Shown here: positions 2,405 to 13,274 of the stretch, in pieces
Layout: each line of letters begins with the position of its first letter
Position numbering within the stretch: the first letter of the stretch is position 1
Origin: an uncultured bacterium
GTDB taxonomy: Bacteria > Pseudomonadota > Alphaproteobacteria > Rhodospirillales > Rhodospirillaceae
Assembly (NCBI GenBank): GCA_903888485.1
Contig: CAISTS010000032.1
Location: 186,001 to 250,000, forward strand
Direction of reading: 5' to 3'
DNA: 64,000 nucleotides
Notes under the pieces: model-generated
What the model was told of the DNA's origin: nothing
The model's input: only the letters and a program-made list of their open reading frames with translations
Databases searched by the model: none
Position numbers and translations under genes: made by a program

Positions 2405-3361
2405 ATGCACTTTCTAGACTTCGAGAAACCGATCGCCGAGATCGAAGGCAAGATCGCCGAGCTCAGGCATCTGTCCGATAGCGACGGCCTGAATATCGCG
2501 GAAGAAGTCAGCCGCCTGCAGACGCGCGTCGACCGTGACCTCCGGCAGGCCTACGCCAAGCTGACGCCATGGCAGAAGGCGCAAGTCGCCCGCCACCCCG
2601 ACCGCCCGCACGCCCTCGATTACATCAACGCCCTCATCGACGATTTCATGCCGCTCGCCGGCGACCGCGCTTTCGGCGAGGACAGCGCCATCATTGGCGG
2701 CCTCGGCCGCTTCAAGGATCGCTCGGTGATGGTCATCGGCATCGAGGAAGGCCGCGACACCGAGACACGCATCAAACACTCCTTCGGCATGGCGCGTCCG
2801 GAAGGCTACCGCAAGGCGCGCCGCCTCATGGAACTGGCCGACAAGTTCGGCATTCCCGTCGTCACGCTGGTTGATACCGCCGGCGCCTATCCCGGCGTCG
2901 ATGCCGAAGAGCGCGGCCAGGCCGAGGCCATCGCGCGCTGCATCGAAACCTGCCTCAACATCCGCACGCCGCTCATCTCCGTCATCATCGGTGAAGGCGG
3001 ATCGGGTGGCGCCATTGCGCTCGCGACCGGCAACATCGTCTTGATGCTCGAGCACTCGATCTATTCCGTGATCTCGCCGGAAGGCTGCGCCTCGATCCTG
3101 TGGCGCGACGGCAAAGAAGCCAGCGTCGCCGCCGAAGCCCTCAAGATCACCGCCCAGGACCTTGAGCGTCTGGGCGTCATCGACGGCATTATCCCCGAGC
3201 CTATCGGCGGCGCCCACCGCGCGCCGCAGACCATCTTCACCGCCGTGCGCGATACGCTGGAAATGCATTTGAACCAGCTCAGCCGCGTCGAAGCCGGCCA
3301 ATTGCGCGCCCGCCGCCGCGACAAGTTCCTGCAGATGGGCCGCCAGGGTCTCGCTATCTGA
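2405..3361 (+). CDS. accA: acetyl-CoA carboxylase carboxyltransferase subunit alpha
   Basis: A 318-aa protein matching the full length of AccA. It pairs with AccD to transfer CO2 from carboxybiotin to acetyl-CoA, giving malonyl-CoA, the first step of fatty acid synthesis. Recognisable family blocks are the N-terminal [17 protein letters not shown] helix, the PGFRKA-like core (here [22 protein letters not shown]), [19 protein letters not shown], and the oxyanion-forming [11 protein letters not shown] near residue 198. The start follows a weak ribosome site and agrees with the conserved family N-terminus. It is a single gene; an attenuator-like leader for asd begins 40 bp downstream. Confidence 0.97.
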
Positions 3362-3402
3362 GCTTTACAGTCCAAAGCTCTTCGCTTAGTTTCCCGGCCG
3401 TT

Positions 3403-3480
3403 ATGACGCACCTGATTAACAAAACCGCCGCGATTAAAAAGACGACCACCATCGGTGGGGCGGCGTGGGTGCGCGTGTAA
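3403..3480 (+). CDS. putative 25-aa leader peptide of asd (attenuator)
   Basis: A short frame of 25 codons plus TAA begins with ATG at 3403. It reads MTHLINKTAAIKKTTTIG, then GAAWVRV. It contains five Thr (three consecutive), three Ile and three Lys codons, all end products of the pathway through aspartate semialdehyde. It ends 30 nt before a strong intrinsic terminator and 97 nt before asd. In the thrABC leader of enterobacteria, Thr/Ile codons play this role. No strong ribosome-binding site is visible upstream, which is the main weakness. Function is inferred from codon content and placement. Confidence 0.6.
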   Translation: MTHLINKTAAIKKTTTIGGAAWVRV

Positions 3481-3520
3481 GATCGAACGCGAAGAGAGAC
3501 CAAAAACCCAAGGCCCCGCC
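3446..3520 (+). promoter_or_regulatory. alternative RNA pairing (protector and antiterminator) in the asd leader
   Basis: Segment 1 (CCACC, 3446-3450, inside the Thr codons) pairs with segment 2 (GGTGG, 3454-3458). Segment 2 in turn can pair as GGTGGGGC (3454-3461) with GCCCCGCC (3513-3520), which overlaps the 5' arm of the terminator. All eight positions pair, one as G-U. Stalling at the Lys/Thr codons would block the first pairing and allow the antiterminator, the classic attenuation layout. Pairing was checked by eye only. Confidence 0.5.
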
Positions 3521-3545
3521 AAACCGGACGGGGCCTTTGTTTTTG
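3510..3545 (+). terminator. intrinsic terminator/attenuator before asd
   Basis: A perfect 9-bp stem (AAGGCCCCG at 3510-3518, CGGGGCCTT at 3529-3537) with a 10-nt loop is followed by TGTTTTT. It sits 32 nt before the asd start codon. It either ends accA transcripts or, more likely given the leader peptide, acts as the attenuator of asd. Confidence 0.85.
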
Positions 3546-3576
3546 GCGCCGTCGCTGACCAAAGGAGTACGACCCT

Positions 3577-4590
3577 GTGAAATCCAATCCTACTGTCGCC
3601 GTTGTCGGCGCCACCGGCGCCGTCGGTGTCGAGTTCCTGTCCTGCCTCGATCAGCGCAAATTCCCGCTGGGTGAGCTGCGCCTGCTCGCCTCGGCGCGCT
3701 CGGCCGGCAAATATCTTCCGTTCAAGGGCAAGCAGCTGCGCGTCGAGGAACTCACGGAGAGGAGCTTCGAGGGCGTGGACATCGCGCTGTTCTCGGCCGG
3801 CAGCGGCATCTCCAAGAAGTTCGGGCCCATTGCCGTGAAAGCCGGCGCGGTTGTCGTCGATAACTCTTCCGCCTTCCGCATGGACAAGGACATTCCCCTG
3901 GTGGTGCCCGAGATCAATGCCGACGCCGTCAAGACGCATAAGGGCATCATCGCGAACCCGAACTGCTCGGCGATCATTTCGATCACCCCGCTGTGGCCGA
4001 TCCACAAGATCAACCGCATCCGGCATATGAACATCGCCACCTACCAGGCCGCGTCCGGCGCCGGCGCGGCGGCCATGGAAGAGCTGGAGGAATCGACGCG
4101 CGCTTATCTTGCCGGCAAGGACTACGCGCCGAAGGTGCTGCCGCACCCTTACGCTTTCAATCTCTTCAGCCACAACGCCGATATCGATATGGCGACGGGC
4201 TATAACGGCGAGGAGTCCAAGGTCATCGCGGAAACACGCAAGATCTTCGGCGATCCCGATGTGCGTATCTCGATCACCTGTGTGCGCGTGCCGGTGCTGC
4301 GCGCCCACGCTGTCGCCGTAACCTTCACCTGCGAGAAGCCGATCACCGAGAAGGAAGCGCGCGACATCATCGCGAAGGCCCCGGGCGTGCGCCTGGTGGA
4401 CGACCGCGCTAAGAATTACTTCCCGATGCCGCGTGATGCCTCGGGCGGCGAGGATATCCTGGTCGGGCGCATCCGCCAGGACGTCGGCGATCCGACGGGT
4501 CATTCCATCGCGCTGTTCTCGGCGGGTGACCAGCTTCTGAAAGGCGCGGCGCAGAACGCCGTGCAGATCGCCGAGCTTCTCGTGAATTAA
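3577..4590 (+). CDS. asd: aspartate-semialdehyde dehydrogenase
   Basis: A 337-aa enzyme that reduces aspartyl phosphate with NADPH to aspartate semialdehyde, the branch point for lysine/diaminopimelate, threonine, methionine and isoleucine. The N-terminal Rossmann motif VVGATGAVGVEFL (residues about 7-19) and the catalytic cysteine in NPNCSAI (near residue 130) are intact. The length is normal for the family. It starts with GTG at 3577 behind a strong AAAGGAG site (3561-3567). It is monocistronic, flanked by an attenuator-type terminator upstream and a bidirectional terminator just after its stop. Confidence 0.96.
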   Translation: MKSNPTVAVVGATGAVGVEFLSCLDQRKFPLGELRLLASARSAGKYLPFKGKQLRVEELTERSFEGVDIALFSAGSGISKKFGPIAVKAGAVVVDNSSAFRMDKDIPLVVPEINADAVKTHKGIIANPNCSAIISITPLWPIHKINRIRHMNIATYQAASGAGAAAMEELEESTRAYLAGKDYAPKVLPHPYAFNLFSHNADIDMATGYNGEESKVIAETRKIFGDPDVRISITCVRVPVLRAHAVAVTFTCEKPITEKEARDIIAKAPGVRLVDDRAKNYFPMPRDASGGEDILVGRIRQDVGDPTGHSIALFSAGDQLLKGAAQNAVQIAELLVN

Positions 4591-4625
4591 AAAAGCGCGC
4601 GCGGGATTATCCCGCGCGCGCTTTT
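4591..4625. terminator. bidirectional terminator between asd and pgk
   Basis: A perfect 15-bp inverted repeat, AAAAGCGCGCGCGGG - ATTAT - CCCGCGCGCGCTTTT, begins immediately after the asd stop codon and lies 14 bp from the pgk stop. U-runs on both strands make it usable by both convergent genes. Confidence 0.93.
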
Positions 4626-4638
4626 GTTTCAGGAAATC

Positions 4639-8747: not shown

Positions 8748-10346
8748 ATGCTTCCCGCTCAACCCGATCCCTTCCGCGTCGCGCTGAACCGCGTGACCTT
8801 CGGTGCCCGCGACACCGACGTCGCGACGGTCAGCTCCGTGGGCTGGGCCGCCTGGGTCGAAGATCAGTTGGCCGCTCCCGCCGGCGATGACTCCGCCCTC
8901 ACCGCGCATCTCAACGCGCAGCTCATGCACATCGAGTATCCGGCCGCGAGCACCGCACAAGGCTCGTGGAACGCGGTGAACGAGGACCGCGGCCTCAACT
9001 ATGTGAACGCCACGACACAGGTGCTGTGGAACATCGCGCGCAACGCCGGGGTCAGCATCTCGTTCAACGAGCGGTTCCGCATCCGCCAGGAACTCGCCGC
9101 CGCCACCTGGATCCGCAACACGCATAGCCGCTATCAGCTGCGCGAGTTCATGGCCGATTTCTGGCACAACCATTTCAACATCGGCAAGAACGAGAACGAA
9201 CTCGCGACCGCGCTGCTGCCGGTCTACGACCGCGTCGCCATCCGCCCCCATGTCTTCGGCAACTTCCGCGCCATGCTTGAGGCGAACGCCACGTCGTCCT
9301 CGATGATGCTCTACCTCGACAACTGGGTCTCGACGGCAACCACGCCGAACGAGAACTACGCGCGCGAGATCATGGAGCTGCACACGCTGGGTGAAGATAG
9401 CTACTACGGCACCGCGAGCCCTTCGAGCGTGGCGACCGGGTACTTCGGCTATGCCGTGGGCTTCACCGACCAGGACATCATCCAGGCCAGCCGCGTGCTG
9501 TCGGGCTGGACGATCCAGGCCGGCCAGCGCTTCGGTCAAACAACATTGCCCAGCACGGGCGAATTCACGTTCAACCCGGCGCAGCACAACACGCAGGCAA
9601 GCACGCTGCTTGGGCTGAATGTACAGTCGTCTGTGGCCGACAACATGAACCAGGGCCGCCTGTTCCTCAACATGCTGGCCTATCACCCGGCGACGGCGAA
9701 CTTCATCATTCGCAAGCTGGCGCGGCGCATGTTCGGCGACAATCCGCCGCAGGCCGTGATCGACCGCGGCGTCGGCGCATGGCTCGCGTTCCAGACGGCG
9801 CCCGATCAGATCGCGCGCGTGCTGCGCGCCATGCTGGTAACCGGCAACGAAATCCGGGAAGTTGCACCCACGAAGGTGCGCCGGCCCTACGAGCGCCTGC
9901 TCGCGCTCGCGCGCACCACCGATATGACGCTCAATGCCGCGCCGCTGATGACCAGCCTGCTCGATCCCTTGAACGACCATCTGTTCGCATGGCAGGCGCC
10001 CAACGGCCGGCCCGATATCAACGAGTACTGGCTCGCCACCGGCGCCAGCATCGCGACGTGGAACCTGCTCTCTCAATTCTCGAACATTCCGCAGGTCAAG
10101 ACCTCGTTCATCAGCCAGACACCAACCGACGTGGTCACGTCGGCCACCGGCGTCGTCGAATACTGGGTCGGGCGCATGGTGGGCGCGACCCTCTCGACCC
10201 AAGCCATGAACGCGCTTGTGCTGGACCAGGCTGGCACCTTGGGCGTGCCGAACGTCAGCCGTTCCAGCAGCCAAACAAATCTCGAGAACGCCTACCGGCG
10301 CCTCGTGAGCCTTATCGCCACGTCCGAAGAATTCACCCTGCGCTAG
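8748..10346 (+). CDS. DUF1800 domain-containing protein (copy 1)
   Basis: A 532-aa protein of the DUF1800 family, of unknown biochemical function, nearly always encoded beside a DUF1501 protein. Family hallmarks are the N-terminal LNRVTFGARDTD, the central REFMADFWHNHFNI, the NENYAREIMELHTLG block, FTDQDIIQASRVLSGW, and the C-terminal VRRPYERLLALARTT. No signal peptide or membrane span is evident even though its partner carries a Tat signal. It is first in a three-gene unit with DUF1501 and a second, clearly homologous DUF1800 copy at 11667. Confidence 0.9.
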   Translation: MLPAQPDPFRVALNRVTFGARDTDVATVSSVGWAAWVEDQLAAPAGDDSALTAHLNAQLMHIEYPAASTAQGSWNAVNEDRGLNYVNATTQVLWNIARNAGVSISFNERFRIRQELAAATWIRNTHSRYQLREFMADFWHNHFNIGKNENELATALLPVYDRVAIRPHVFGNFRAMLEANATSSSMMLYLDNWVSTATTPNENYAREIMELHTLGEDSYYGTASPSSVATGYFGYAVGFTDQDIIQASRVLSGWTIQAGQRFGQTTLPSTGEFTFNPAQHNTQASTLLGLNVQSSVADNMNQGRLFLNMLAYHPATANFIIRKLARRMFGDNPPQAVIDRGVGAWLAFQTAPDQIARVLRAMLVTGNEIREVAPTKVRRPYERLLALARTTDMTLNAAPLMTSLLDPLNDHLFAWQAPNGRPDINEYWLATGASIATWNLLSQFSNIPQVKTSFISQTPTDVVTSATGVVEYWVGRMVGATLSTQAMNALVLDQAGTLGVPNVSRSSSQTNLENAYRRLVSLIATSEEFTLR

Positions 10347-10373
10347 AACCGGCGCGGAGCAGGAGAAAGACGC

Positions 10374-11603
10374 ATGAATATCGCTTCGCACACACTTTCA
10401 CGCCGCGGCCTTTTGGCCGGCGGTGCCGCCATGGCCGCCATCGCGCCCGGGCTGAATGTATCGTTCGCCCAGCAAGCTCCGACCACCACGCGCGATATCC
10501 TCGTCGTCTTGTTCCAGCGCGGCGCCTGCGACTGGCTGCAGATGCTGGCGCCCGCCGGTGATGCGAACTACGTCGCAGCGCGCCCGACCATCCGCATCCG
10601 CACCGATGGCAACACGCCCGGCATCGGTGTCGGCACGCTCGGCGGTACGGATATGTATCTGCCCGCCGTCGCGCCCGAACTGAAGACGCTTTACGACTCC
10701 GGCAAGCTCGCCCTCATCCACGCCGTCGGCATTCCCACCGTCGACCGCAGCCACTTCACTTGCCAGGACATGATGGAAAAGGGCGGCGCGGATGGCGAGC
10801 CTGAAGGCAACGCCGGCTGGCTCGCGCGCCATATCGCCTCGGCGGGCACCGGCGGCGCGGAACTCTCAACCGTCGCGGCCAGCGCCACCAACCCGGTCGC
10901 GCTGCTGGGCGAACCGACGGCCATCGCCATCGCCAACACCGACACCTTCAACATCAATGGCGGTACCGCCAACGCAAACGTCATTCGCGCCATCAACAGC
11001 GGCCCGACTTCGGACTACAAGAAAATCGCCAACGCGGCCTTGGACGCGGTAGACGATGTACAGGCGGGCCTGCGCACTCTGAGCGACAACTCGGCCGATG
11101 CGGGCTATACGAACGGCGCGCTGTCGCAGCCGCTGCGCTCGCTCGCCAAGCTCATCAAGATGAATGTCGGCATCGATATCGCCACGGTCGATTACGGCGG
11201 CTGGGACATGCACAACAGCCTGACCGGCGAGTTCAACACCCGCACCACCGAGTTCAGCCGCGCCATCAACGCCTTCTGGAAGGACATCGCGGCCTATCAG
11301 AACCGCGTGACCATCGTCACTATGACCGAGTTCGGCCGCCGCTTGCAGGAGAACGCGAGCCAAGGCACCGACCACGGTTCGGCCAGCGGCATCATGGTCC
11401 TCGGCGGCAACGTCGCCGGCGGCAAGATCTACGGCAATTGGCCGGGCCTCGCCGCCAACCAGCTCGTCTCCGGTGACTTGCGCGTCACAACCGACTACCG
11501 CCAGGTGCTGGCCGAGATCCTGGTCAAGCGCCACCGCGAGACCAAGCTCGCGTCGGTGTTCCCGACCATCGCCTACAGTCCGCTCGGCTTCATGAACGCC
11601 TAA
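10374..11603 (+). CDS. DUF1501 domain-containing protein with Tat signal
   Basis: A 409-aa protein of the DUF1501 family, distantly related to alkaline-phosphatase/sulfatase-like folds. Residues 1-33 form a Tat-type signal (SRRGLLAGG, hydrophobic stretch, cleavage after about SFA). Family motifs include the QRGACDWLQML start, the DRSHFTCQDMME block, the YGGWDMHNSL motif and MTEFGRRLQENASQGTDHGS, whose Asp/His residues would suit metal binding. It lies 27 bp after the first DUF1800 gene and 63 bp before the second, so export of a folded complex through Tat is plausible. Confidence 0.9.
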   Translation: MNIASHTLSRRGLLAGGAAMAAIAPGLNVSFAQQAPTTTRDILVVLFQRGACDWLQMLAPAGDANYVAARPTIRIRTDGNTPGIGVGTLGGTDMYLPAVAPELKTLYDSGKLALIHAVGIPTVDRSHFTCQDMMEKGGADGEPEGNAGWLARHIASAGTGGAELSTVAASATNPVALLGEPTAIAIANTDTFNINGGTANANVIRAINSGPTSDYKKIANAALDAVDDVQAGLRTLSDNSADAGYTNGALSQPLRSLAKLIKMNVGIDIATVDYGGWDMHNSLTGEFNTRTTEFSRAINAFWKDIAAYQNRVTIVTMTEFGRRLQENASQGTDHGSASGIMVLGGNVAGGKIYGNWPGLAANQLVSGDLRVTTDYRQVLAEILVKRHRETKLASVFPTIAYSPLGFMNA

Positions 11604-11666
11604 GCGTTCATTCAAGTTCAGCATGGTACGCGCCGCGAGGCGGCACTGAATTCAGATAGGGCAAGA

Positions 11667-13274
11667 ATGCTTCCGACGACCCCCAATCCCATTCGCACGG
11701 CGCTTAATCGCGTAACCTTCGGCGCCCGCGACACCGATGTCGCCATCACGGAGCGCACCGGCTTGGCGGCCTGGGTCGAGGACCAGCTCATTCCGCCCAG
11801 CGGCGACGATCCGTTCCTTGCGACGCATTTGGCGCGTCAGACCATGCGCATCCGCTACAACGCGCCGGCGGAGAACGACACACGCGGGACGTGGCAAGCC
11901 ACCGACGAAATGCGTGCGCTCAACTACCTCAATTTCAACATACCGGCGCTGTGGAACGTCGCACGCAATACCGGCACGATCTTCTCAGGGTCCGAGCGCA
12001 CGCGTATCCGCCAGGAGCTGGCAGCCGCCACCTGGATCCGTAACGCCCACAGCCGTTACCAGCTGCGCGAGTTCATGGTCGACTTTTGGCACAATCACTT
12101 CAACATCGGCAAAAACGAGAACGAGCTCGCCACCGCGCTGCTGCCCGCTTACGACGGCATGCTGCGCCAGAACGTGTTCGGTAATTTCCGCACCCTGCTG
12201 GAGGCCACCGCCACCTCGCCCTCAATGCTGATCTATCTCGACAACTGGGTGTCGAGCGCGACCACGCCCAACGAGAACTACGCCCGCGAGATCATGGAGC
12301 TGCATACATTAGGCGGCGGCGCATATCTCGGCACCCAAAACCCCGCGACGGTGCCGTTAGGCGCCAACGGGGTCGCGGTGGGGTTCACCGACCAGGATAT
12401 CGTGCAGGCCAGCCGCGCGCTGTCGGGTTGGACTGTTCAATACGGTCAGCGCGGAGACGGCACCGCGACGCTCGCGAACACCGGCGAGTTCATCTTCAAT
12501 CCGCGCCAGCACAACCGTCAGGCCGCGACCTTGCTCGGCATAAACGTGCAATCGGCGCTCAATGACATGCGCCAGGGCCAGATGCTGCTCAACATGCTGG
12601 CCTACCATCCCTCGACCGCCAACTTCGTCGTGGGCAAGCTTGCGCGGCGCATCTTCGGCGATACGCCGCCGCAAAGCGTCATCGATCGCGCCGTCGCGGC
12701 CTGGATGGCCAATCAAACCAATCCCAATCAGATCGCCCATGTGCTTCGCGCGATGCTGCTCGCCGGCAACGAAGTCAGCACCGCGCCGTCCGCCAAAGTA
12801 CGCCGCCCTTACGAGCGCATCCTCGCCATGGCGCGCACCACGGAAATGGTGGTCAACGCCGCCACCTACATGACCAGTCTGCTCGATCAATTGAACGACG
12901 GCTTGTTCGCCTGGCCCGCACCTGACGGCCGTCCCGATGAGAACGCCTACTGGCTGGCTACCGGCTCGACCATTGCCACATGGAATCTGTTGTTCCAAGT
13001 GCCAAACTACCCCGAGTTCGCGACCACCACGCTGACCGCGCAAACGCCGGAGAGCGTTTTGCAAAGCGCAACGGAAGTAACGGAATACTGGGTAGGCCGC
13101 ATGATCGGACACGCGCTCAGCGACAACGCCATGGGGGCGCTGGTGACCGATCAGGGCGGCAGTAACGGCATCCCCGCCAACGTGCGGGCGCGCGCTACCG
13201 CGGCGCGCATCGAGACCGCGCACCGGCGCCTCATCAGCCTCATCGCGACGACGGAAGAGTTCAGCCTGCGCTAA
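11667..13274 (+). CDS. DUF1800 domain-containing protein (copy 2)
   Basis: A 535-aa paralogue of the gene at 8748, sharing almost every family block (LNRVTFGARDTD, REFMVDFWHNHFNIGKNE, NENYAREIMELHTLG, VRRPYERILAMARTTEM). Most positions are identical, so the pair arose by duplication, but divergence is spread through the whole length, so it is not recent. There is no signal peptide. The last 14 nt overlap the end of the convergent FTR1 gene. Two DUF1800 copies around one DUF1501 may mean a hetero-oligomeric assembly. Confidence 0.9.
   Translation: MLPTTPNPIRTALNRVTFGARDTDVAITERTGLAAWVEDQLIPPSGDDPFLATHLARQTMRIRYNAPAENDTRGTWQATDEMRALNYLNFNIPALWNVARNTGTIFSGSERTRIRQELAAATWIRNAHSRYQLREFMVDFWHNHFNIGKNENELATALLPAYDGMLRQNVFGNFRTLLEATATSPSMLIYLDNWVSSATTPNENYAREIMELHTLGGGAYLGTQNPATVPLGANGVAVGFTDQDIVQASRALSGWTVQYGQRGDGTATLANTGEFIFNPRQHNRQAATLLGINVQSALNDMRQGQMLLNMLAYHPSTANFVVGKLARRIFGDTPPQSVIDRAVAAWMANQTNPNQIAHVLRAMLLAGNEVSTAPSAKVRRPYERILAMARTTEMVVNAATYMTSLLDQLNDGLFAWPAPDGRPDENAYWLATGSTIATWNLLFQVPNYPEFATTTLTAQTPESVLQSATEVTEYWVGRMIGHALSDNAMGALVTDQGGSNGIPANVRARATAARIETAHRRLISLIATTEEFSLR

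Follow-up and report, generated by a model that had tools for sequence, protein, structure and literature searches.

In the window, by which the whole analysed stretch of 64,000 nucleotides is meant, a small open reading frame (MTHLINKTAAIKKTTTIGGAAWVRV*; 25 codons, forward strand, positions 3403..3480, stop codon at 3478) is situated between accA, which lies upstream of asd (2405-3361, NCBIfam model match above the cut-off), and asd itself, encoding aspartate-semialdehyde dehydrogenase (forward strand, 3577..4590). The asd frame begins with GTG and has a Shine-Dalgarno site, GGAG, at 3564..3567 of the same strand; its protein matched NF011456 with 420.6 bits (cut-off 223) and TIGR01296 (asd_B) with 385.5 bits (cut-off 324.2). 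The leader peptide had no NCBIfam match. A first-pass annotation had described a small frame before asd with three consecutive threonine codons in the company of lysine and isoleucine codons, and this frame was found at the coordinates it gave, every element of which was checked and proved correct. The codons that had been proposed to exert control are Lys7, Thr8, Ile11, Lys12, Lys13, Thr14, Thr15, Thr16, and Ile17 (forward strand, 3421..3453). Below, asd2 denotes the gene type of the window and asd1 the type at 42-48% identity that is held by most genomes of the order. Directly after asd (4591-4628), ahead of a convergent frame that is presumably pgk-like, lies a strong GC-rich inverted repeat with a T-run, which suggests that asd is transcribed alone. 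Farther along (8748-13274), an open frame (10374-11603) has on either side of it one of two others that resemble each other (8748-10346 and 11667-13274), an arrangement that we take to be of the DUF1800/DUF1501 type.

Several segments of the forward strand within and behind the frame can pair in alternative ways. Region 1 (CCACC, 3446..3450) lies inside the threonine codons and, as had been proposed, faces a GGTGG at 3454-3458; in the fold of 3403-3545, the pairing probability of this protector stem (1:2) with region 2 is 0.97, a prediction made for the window fold only. Region 2 (3454..3470), the 5' strand of the antiterminator, consists of GGTGGGGC (3454-3461) plus positions 3466-3470. Region 3 (3506..3520), the 3' strand, includes GCCCCGCC (3513-3520), the segment pairing with 3454-3461, and overlaps the 5' arm of the terminator (3510-3518). 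The intrinsic terminator (3510..3544) has a perfect 9-bp stem of AAGGCCCCG (3510-3518) and CGGGGCCTT (3529-3537, region 4) and a U-run, TTTGTTTTT, at 3536-3544. Region 5 (TGGCGCCGTCG, 3544..3554) is complementary to region 4. Both the alternative pairing of 3454-3461 with 3513-3520 and the terminator that it overlaps had been noted before and are present; the antiterminator duplex 2:3 amounts to -25.1 kcal/mol and was equalled or beaten by 0 of 100 shuffles. The window thus shows three features of ribosome-mediated leader-peptide attenuators of amino-acid genes: a short frame ahead of the gene with codons for end products of its pathway, an intrinsic terminator between leader and gene, and a mutually exclusive antiterminator.

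The region 3385-3550 folds better than its shuffles (z -2.55; 1 of 200 as stable). Before the 3' arm of the terminator (region 4) is transcribed, 2:3 folds fully at -29.8 kcal/mol, and the two end states are near in energy (-31.4 kcal/mol for 2:3 versus -33.0 kcal/mol for 3:4). Equilibrium folding of the window gave no switch, the terminator persisting when the leader was masked (0.78 to 0.74), and it therefore fails as proof of switching here; because the terminator wins at equilibrium, antitermination in the window must be kinetic. The predicted terminator probability in the nascent transcript dropped by more than 0.5 in only 19 of 43 loci with the asd2 layout and 20 of 53 of the other type. 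According to a footprint estimate, a ribosome stalled on the last two threonine codons would mask part of region 2.

A sigma-70-like promoter was located at 3364..3392 of the forward strand (-35 TTTACA at 3364-3369, 17-nt spacer, -10 TAGTTT at 3387-3392), with a score reached by 6 of 200 shuffles. Its -10 hexamer ends 10 nt before the leader ATG, which would leave a 5'-UTR of a few bases. The promoter scan admitted only -10 hexamers ending 5-11 nt before the start codon, and under this restriction a promoter of this kind matched by at most 10 of 200 shuffles was obtained in 33 of 43 asd2-layout loci; the script took an inner ATG for L201, L203, L205, L212, and L214, four of which are among the ten failures. 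TTTACA or TTTACT was found in all ten close loci described below. A GGAG, AGGA, or GAGG at the place of a leader ribosome site occurred in 1 of 43 asd2-layout loci, and such a site stood ahead of an in-frame start in 42 of 53 asd1-type leaders. The promoter next to the start codon and the rarity of ribosome sites make a leaderless or nearly leaderless start likely in the asd2 layout, so that the leader is probably translated from an mRNA of this kind. The first-pass annotation had counted the missing ribosome site before the leader as a weakness; the absence stands, and the promoter-like hexamers offer a possible explanation for it in a leaderless start.

The search among near relatives covered 61 genomes (the window's own and 60 others) and gave eleven orthologues of the window asd at 73-93% identity. 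The ten close loci (L002-L011), made up of the window and nine orthologues, belong to nine genomes of the window's genus and one of another genus of the family. In all ten, the corresponding leader of 24-27 codons contains Lys-Thr-Thr and is followed by a GC-rich hairpin; no leader was found at L012 and L013, two of the eleven orthologues, which come from other genera. The threonine and lysine codons of the close leaders vary synonymously (ACG/ACC/ACT and AAA/AAG), and differences in length amount to whole codons. Among the proposed control codons, those for threonine and lysine persist; isoleucine was rejected as a conserved control codon, its count among the ten close loci ranging from six to none, with L009 and L010 lacking it. 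Alignment of relatives had been suggested as the check on the frame, its threonine and lysine codons, and the alternative stems, and these were conserved in 10/10 close loci and in 21/29 further asd2-type loci, some of them called by eye. Further support came from part of the window's order, where genes of the other asd type are also preceded by a Thr/Lys leader.

For a broader survey, 199 asd upstream regions (L002-L200) were assembled: 30 from the near search, 80 named loci of many phyla, 29 from a further search, and 60 chosen by hand from listed rows. One of them was shortened by a contig end, and a few genes are present twice (e.g., L012 and L038). The leader detector required a terminator-like hairpin at 8-50 nt past the end of a frame and counted threonine plus lysine in the last 24 codons of that frame. 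Early versions overlooked L006 and L009 among others; the detector was loosened before the final count, and the null was recomputed with the loosened form. The control consisted of 2954 hairpins in 662,999 bases of other DNA, both strands. Leaders with at least six Thr plus Lys before a hairpin were detected at 71 of 199 asd upstream regions versus 9 of 2954 control sites, and leaders with at least seven at 66 of 199 versus 0 of 2954; since the loci are related, this contrast with the controls compares counts and is not a p-value. Acidisphaera and Yoonia are represented among the 71 leader loci, as are six named Bradyrhizobium loci (MFTTTKRTTKTTTASGARGGVRT* and similar peptides), and leaders were also recognized by eye at L042 (a Rhizobium MAG), L043 (Marivivens), and L044.

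A class-wide draw of 387 genomes added 29 new asd2-type loci (L201-L229). A leader was present in 21 of these, some called by eye (L221 has only four Thr plus Lys), and none was found in the other eight (L204, L206, L207, L210, L213, L215, L218, and L226). Sixty other loci chosen by hand from the same draw (L230-L289) contained four convincing leaders (L233, L242, L243, and L269). Two detector matches were set aside: L259, where the frame is far from the hairpin, and L282, where it resembles what we take, by its look, to be the end of a ribosomal protein. The richest Thr/Lys leader before an asd gene was that of L269 (genome G601, outside the window's order), with 14 Thr plus Lys in the last 24 codons (...TITTPTKTIGTKTTGTKKTWS*).

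The antiterminator was matched by at most 5 of 100 shuffles in 51 of the 71 leader loci (mean z -2.39); the 20 loci in which it did not exceed 95 of 100 shuffles include all six named Bradyrhizobium loci. Two layouts were distinguished. In the asd2-type loci of this set, the 5' strand of the antiterminator lies inside the frame just past the control codons, 24-42 nt ahead of the stop codon; nearly all of the other loci (with leaders ending, e.g., ...TTKTGTTKTA*) have this strand around the stop codon. With MAFFT, 34 loci were aligned, two of them identical (L042 and L227), and the alignment was compared with 300 shuffles using the structures of L221, L009, L042, and L002 (the window) as references. 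In this order, the number of shuffles reaching the observed value was 0, 0, 103, and 0 for 3:4 (the terminator); 156, 0, 258, and 0 for 2:3; 3, 0, 2, and 255 for the pairing of region 4 with region 5 (4:5); and 202, 114, 2, and 15 for that of region 5 with the asd Shine-Dalgarno region (5:6). Slid controls for 5:6 equalled or exceeded the observed value with all four references, and the quality of the alignment there is poor. The terminator and 4:5 thus gain support from the alignment, and 5:6 draws mainly on the alignment-free test given below.

The element is very probably a ribosome-mediated attenuator through which charged tRNA-Thr and, together with it, charged tRNA-Lys govern asd; the earlier reading as a leader-peptide attenuator largely holds, to judge by the conserved frame, threonine and lysine codons, and alternative stems. 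Asd makes the common precursor of lysine, threonine, methionine, and isoleucine, which is why lysine and threonine codons fit an attenuator of its gene. The scheme builds on the computed frame, codons, terminator, competing pairing, and recurrence in relatives; the transcription start, the stalling of the ribosome, and the response to amino acids are inferred. RNA polymerase would, judging from the promoter, start at or a few bases from the leader AUG, and a ribosome would load on the leaderless mRNA. With threonine and lysine plentiful, it would reach the stop codon at 3478, regions 1 and 2 would pair behind it, and the terminator would form from regions 3 and 4, so that transcription would stop short of asd. 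If either amino acid was scarce, the ribosome would stall on the lysine and threonine codons and mask region 1, so that 2:3 could pair once region 3 was made; the terminator would then come too late, and asd would be transcribed. Region 5 of some relatives that share this asd type may have two alternative partners, the 3' arm of the terminator (on) and the Shine-Dalgarno region of asd (off), and the switch there may therefore act on translation too.

This extension was explored because many asd2 loci carry behind the hairpin a segment (e.g., GGCGCCCGTCTCC) complementary to both the 3' arm of the terminator and the asd Shine-Dalgarno region. The test set comprised 44 loci, namely 42 of the asd2 type with a leader together with L233 and L243 (48-49% identical, same layout); 42 were testable, L209 being too short and L211 having no hairpin that could be found. 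At a limit of 10 of 200 shuffles, 4:5 was obtained in 18 of 42 loci and 5:6 in 20 of 42, and without the seven Bradyrhizobium-type loci the counts were 18 and 20 of 35. The controls for 5:6 were low (1 of 49 asd1-type loci with a leader, 1 of 61 asd genes without one, and 0 of 24 window genes). In the window, 4:5 amounts to -17.9 kcal/mol, with 5 of 200 shuffles as good, and 5:6 is not significant, with 105 of 200 as good. The hairpin lacks a U-run at L042, L217, L222, L223, L224, L227, L228, and L229, all of which have a Thr/Lys leader before asd; lacking it, the hairpin may not be an intrinsic terminator (L042, L217, L222, L223, L224, L227, and L228).

These pairings in relatives suggest a combined transcription and translation attenuator in which a single stall would set a cascade of six segments: 2:3 with 4:5 would free the asd ribosome site, 3:4 with 5:6 would terminate transcription and hide the site, and lineages without a U-run would use translation control only. 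We regard this as a serious possibility just short of an even call, and as partial at most in the window. Besides the counts of 4:5 and 5:6 against the low 5:6 controls, it is favoured by the alignment, in which 4:5 stood above nearly all shuffles with three of the four references, and by predicted folds, which changed in the expected sense from 3:4 with 5:6 to 2:3 with 4:5 upon masking of the leader at L004, L221, and L042. T-richness behind the hairpin also rose as Shine-Dalgarno pairing weakened, weaker U-runs thus accompanying stronger pairing (rho 0.41, p 0.007; 43 loci, relatedness uncorrected). However, some of the loci tested are those whose inspection by eye gave rise to the idea, which deprives the test of independence; the loci are also related, with L042 and L227 identical. 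Apart from the window's own 5:6 result, the alignment backs 5:6 with one reference only and its slid controls do as well or better, 4:5 fails with the window as reference, and 4:5 appeared in 6 of 49 asd1-type loci, above expectation. Nor did the folds of L009 and L228 change fully upon masking, and the predicted Shine-Dalgarno site opened by more than 0.2 in only 8 of 43 loci and closed in 2 of 43. Against the folded paired probability of that site, T-richness gave rho -0.16 (p 0.30; 43 loci).

It is also possible, although less likely than not, that the attenuator senses threonine only and that the lysine codons are incidental. Threonine outnumbers lysine in 70 of 71 leaders (mean 6.4 vs 2.3), and the last three control codons of the window before Ile17 are threonine codons. 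Against this, all 71 leaders, before both asd types, have at least one lysine within the last 24 codons, which is so partly by construction because the loci were chosen on Thr plus Lys.

Still less probable is a role of the leader as a functional small protein, or as a dual-function small RNA acting in trans like peTrpL/rnTrpL of Sinorhizobium meliloti, possibly besides attenuation. Such a role would have a precedent in S. meliloti, where, according to passages of PMC7298713, an attenuator RNA that is leaderless and codes for a leader peptide is active in trans; it is opposed by the strong divergence of the leader peptides between lineages outside the Lys/Thr stretch and by the absence of an NCBIfam match for the window peptide. 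A plain accA terminator followed by an independent asd promoter, with the small frame there by chance, would be ordinary between accA and asd but can be practically dismissed on the Lys-Thr-Thr frame of all ten close loci, the similar frames before asd throughout the class, the null of 0 in 2954 at seven or more Thr plus Lys, and the promoter-like site ahead of the frame.

A tree was built from 72 Asd proteins. Its branch containing the window, weakly supported (82/57), comprises 32 rows, every one with a leader, and an inner branch of 13 rows that includes the window has support of 98/95; the Bradyrhizobium-type branch (100/97) has leaders in 6/6 rows, and 13 other asd2-like rows have none. 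The leader labels on this tree were entered by hand, some on visual inspection. In the window's branch, rows with the names Acetobacteraceae, Paracoccaceae, and Rhizobium MAG are intermixed, which points to joint transfer of the gene and its leader without proving it. A second asd match was found in 31 of 31 genomes with a leader-bearing asd2 (10/10 near and 21/21 of the class draw) and in 7 of 8 leader-free asd2 genomes of the class draw; it is therefore asd2, not the leader, that is accompanied by a second copy. In three of the ten near genomes this second copy was read, and it had no leader there (L141-L143). A mobile, self-contained cassette could be envisaged, in which an additional asd spreads in the Alphaproteobacteria together with a leaderless Thr/Lys leader and a six-segment cascade in which termination is coupled to occlusion of the ribosome site of asd, some lineages having lost the U-run and kept translation control only. 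This we offer tentatively and with more doubt than belief.

Attenuation by a threonine-rich leader is textbook knowledge for the enterobacterial thr operon (thrL), which resembles the window in its threonine-rich leader, an antiterminator close behind the control codons, an intrinsic terminator, and the same pathway. It differs in that thrABC is controlled there and asd here, that lysine joins threonine here and isoleucine is not kept, and that the start here is probably leaderless. No Rfam family reached the gathering score in the window or 17 relatives, which disposed of the known leaders and riboswitches considered as candidates, among them the threonine operon leader (which we take to be an Rfam family), the lysine riboswitch, and the T-box. 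Chains of alternative stems that hide or free a ribosome site are familiar from ermC-type translation attenuation and from the Shine-Dalgarno-blocking hairpin of Bacillus subtilis trpE, which is combined with a terminator in B. subtilis trp; here, such a chain is suggested in relatives only, with threonine and lysine codons as the sensor, and is not significant in the window. Attenuation in proteobacteria is reportedly the subject of work by Vitreschak et al. in 2004, which PMC10117765 cites.

The first-pass annotation knew of no description of such an element for an alphaproteobacterial asd. This was borne out in part: the open PubMed Central literature, as far as its accessible passages go, yielded no alphaproteobacterial asd attenuator except a remark on SEP5 of S. 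meliloti, already suggested there as a Thr/Lys leader peptide (PMC10117765). In the passages on SEP5, this frame has six threonine and three lysine codons, is situated in the 5'-UTR of a gene termed aspartate dehydrogenase, was detected as translated by Ribo-seq and Western blot, and is called conserved only in Sinorhizobium. We take the downstream gene to be asd; SEP5 would then be alike in being a translated small frame with threonine and lysine codons in the 5'-UTR of a presumed asd, and it differs in that those passages give no attenuator structure and the leader peptide is only suggested. The trpL attenuator RNA (rnTrpL) of S. meliloti starts with the leader AUG, according to passages of PMC7298713 and PMC10117765, and is likewise an alphaproteobacterial leader-peptide attenuator, with tryptophan codons and another gene; for the window, the leaderless start is only predicted. 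The asd RNA motif is also a structured RNA named after asd but, in the passage of PMC2864571 that describes it, belongs to the Lactobacillales, a different phylum, and it had no match at the gathering score in the window or 17 relatives. In the part of PMC10454058 that was available, asd and leader peptide occur in unrelated table rows.

With no Rfam family matched and SEP5 as the nearest report, the element appears as leader-peptide attenuation with a new gene and clade, joint threonine and lysine codons, and a possible link to translation in relatives; what is new is the breadth among relatives, the association with an additional asd gene, and the further pairing segment in relatives. If the reading is true, one leader design in a branched pathway would sense two end products at their common enzyme, the same Thr/Lys design would precede two separate asd types of Alphaproteobacteria, and SEP5 of S. 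meliloti would gain a family. One might guess that the additional asd, which bears the leader in the window's genus, serves as an inducible isozyme next to a constitutive copy. A passage from transcription attenuation to translation attenuation might become visible when lineages that have a U-run are compared with those that lack it.

As a separate observation, three genomes belonging to the window's order have long inverted repeats with TAGTGT-like ends and a MITE-like look next to asd, upstream of the gene at L119 and L129 and on its far side at L024.
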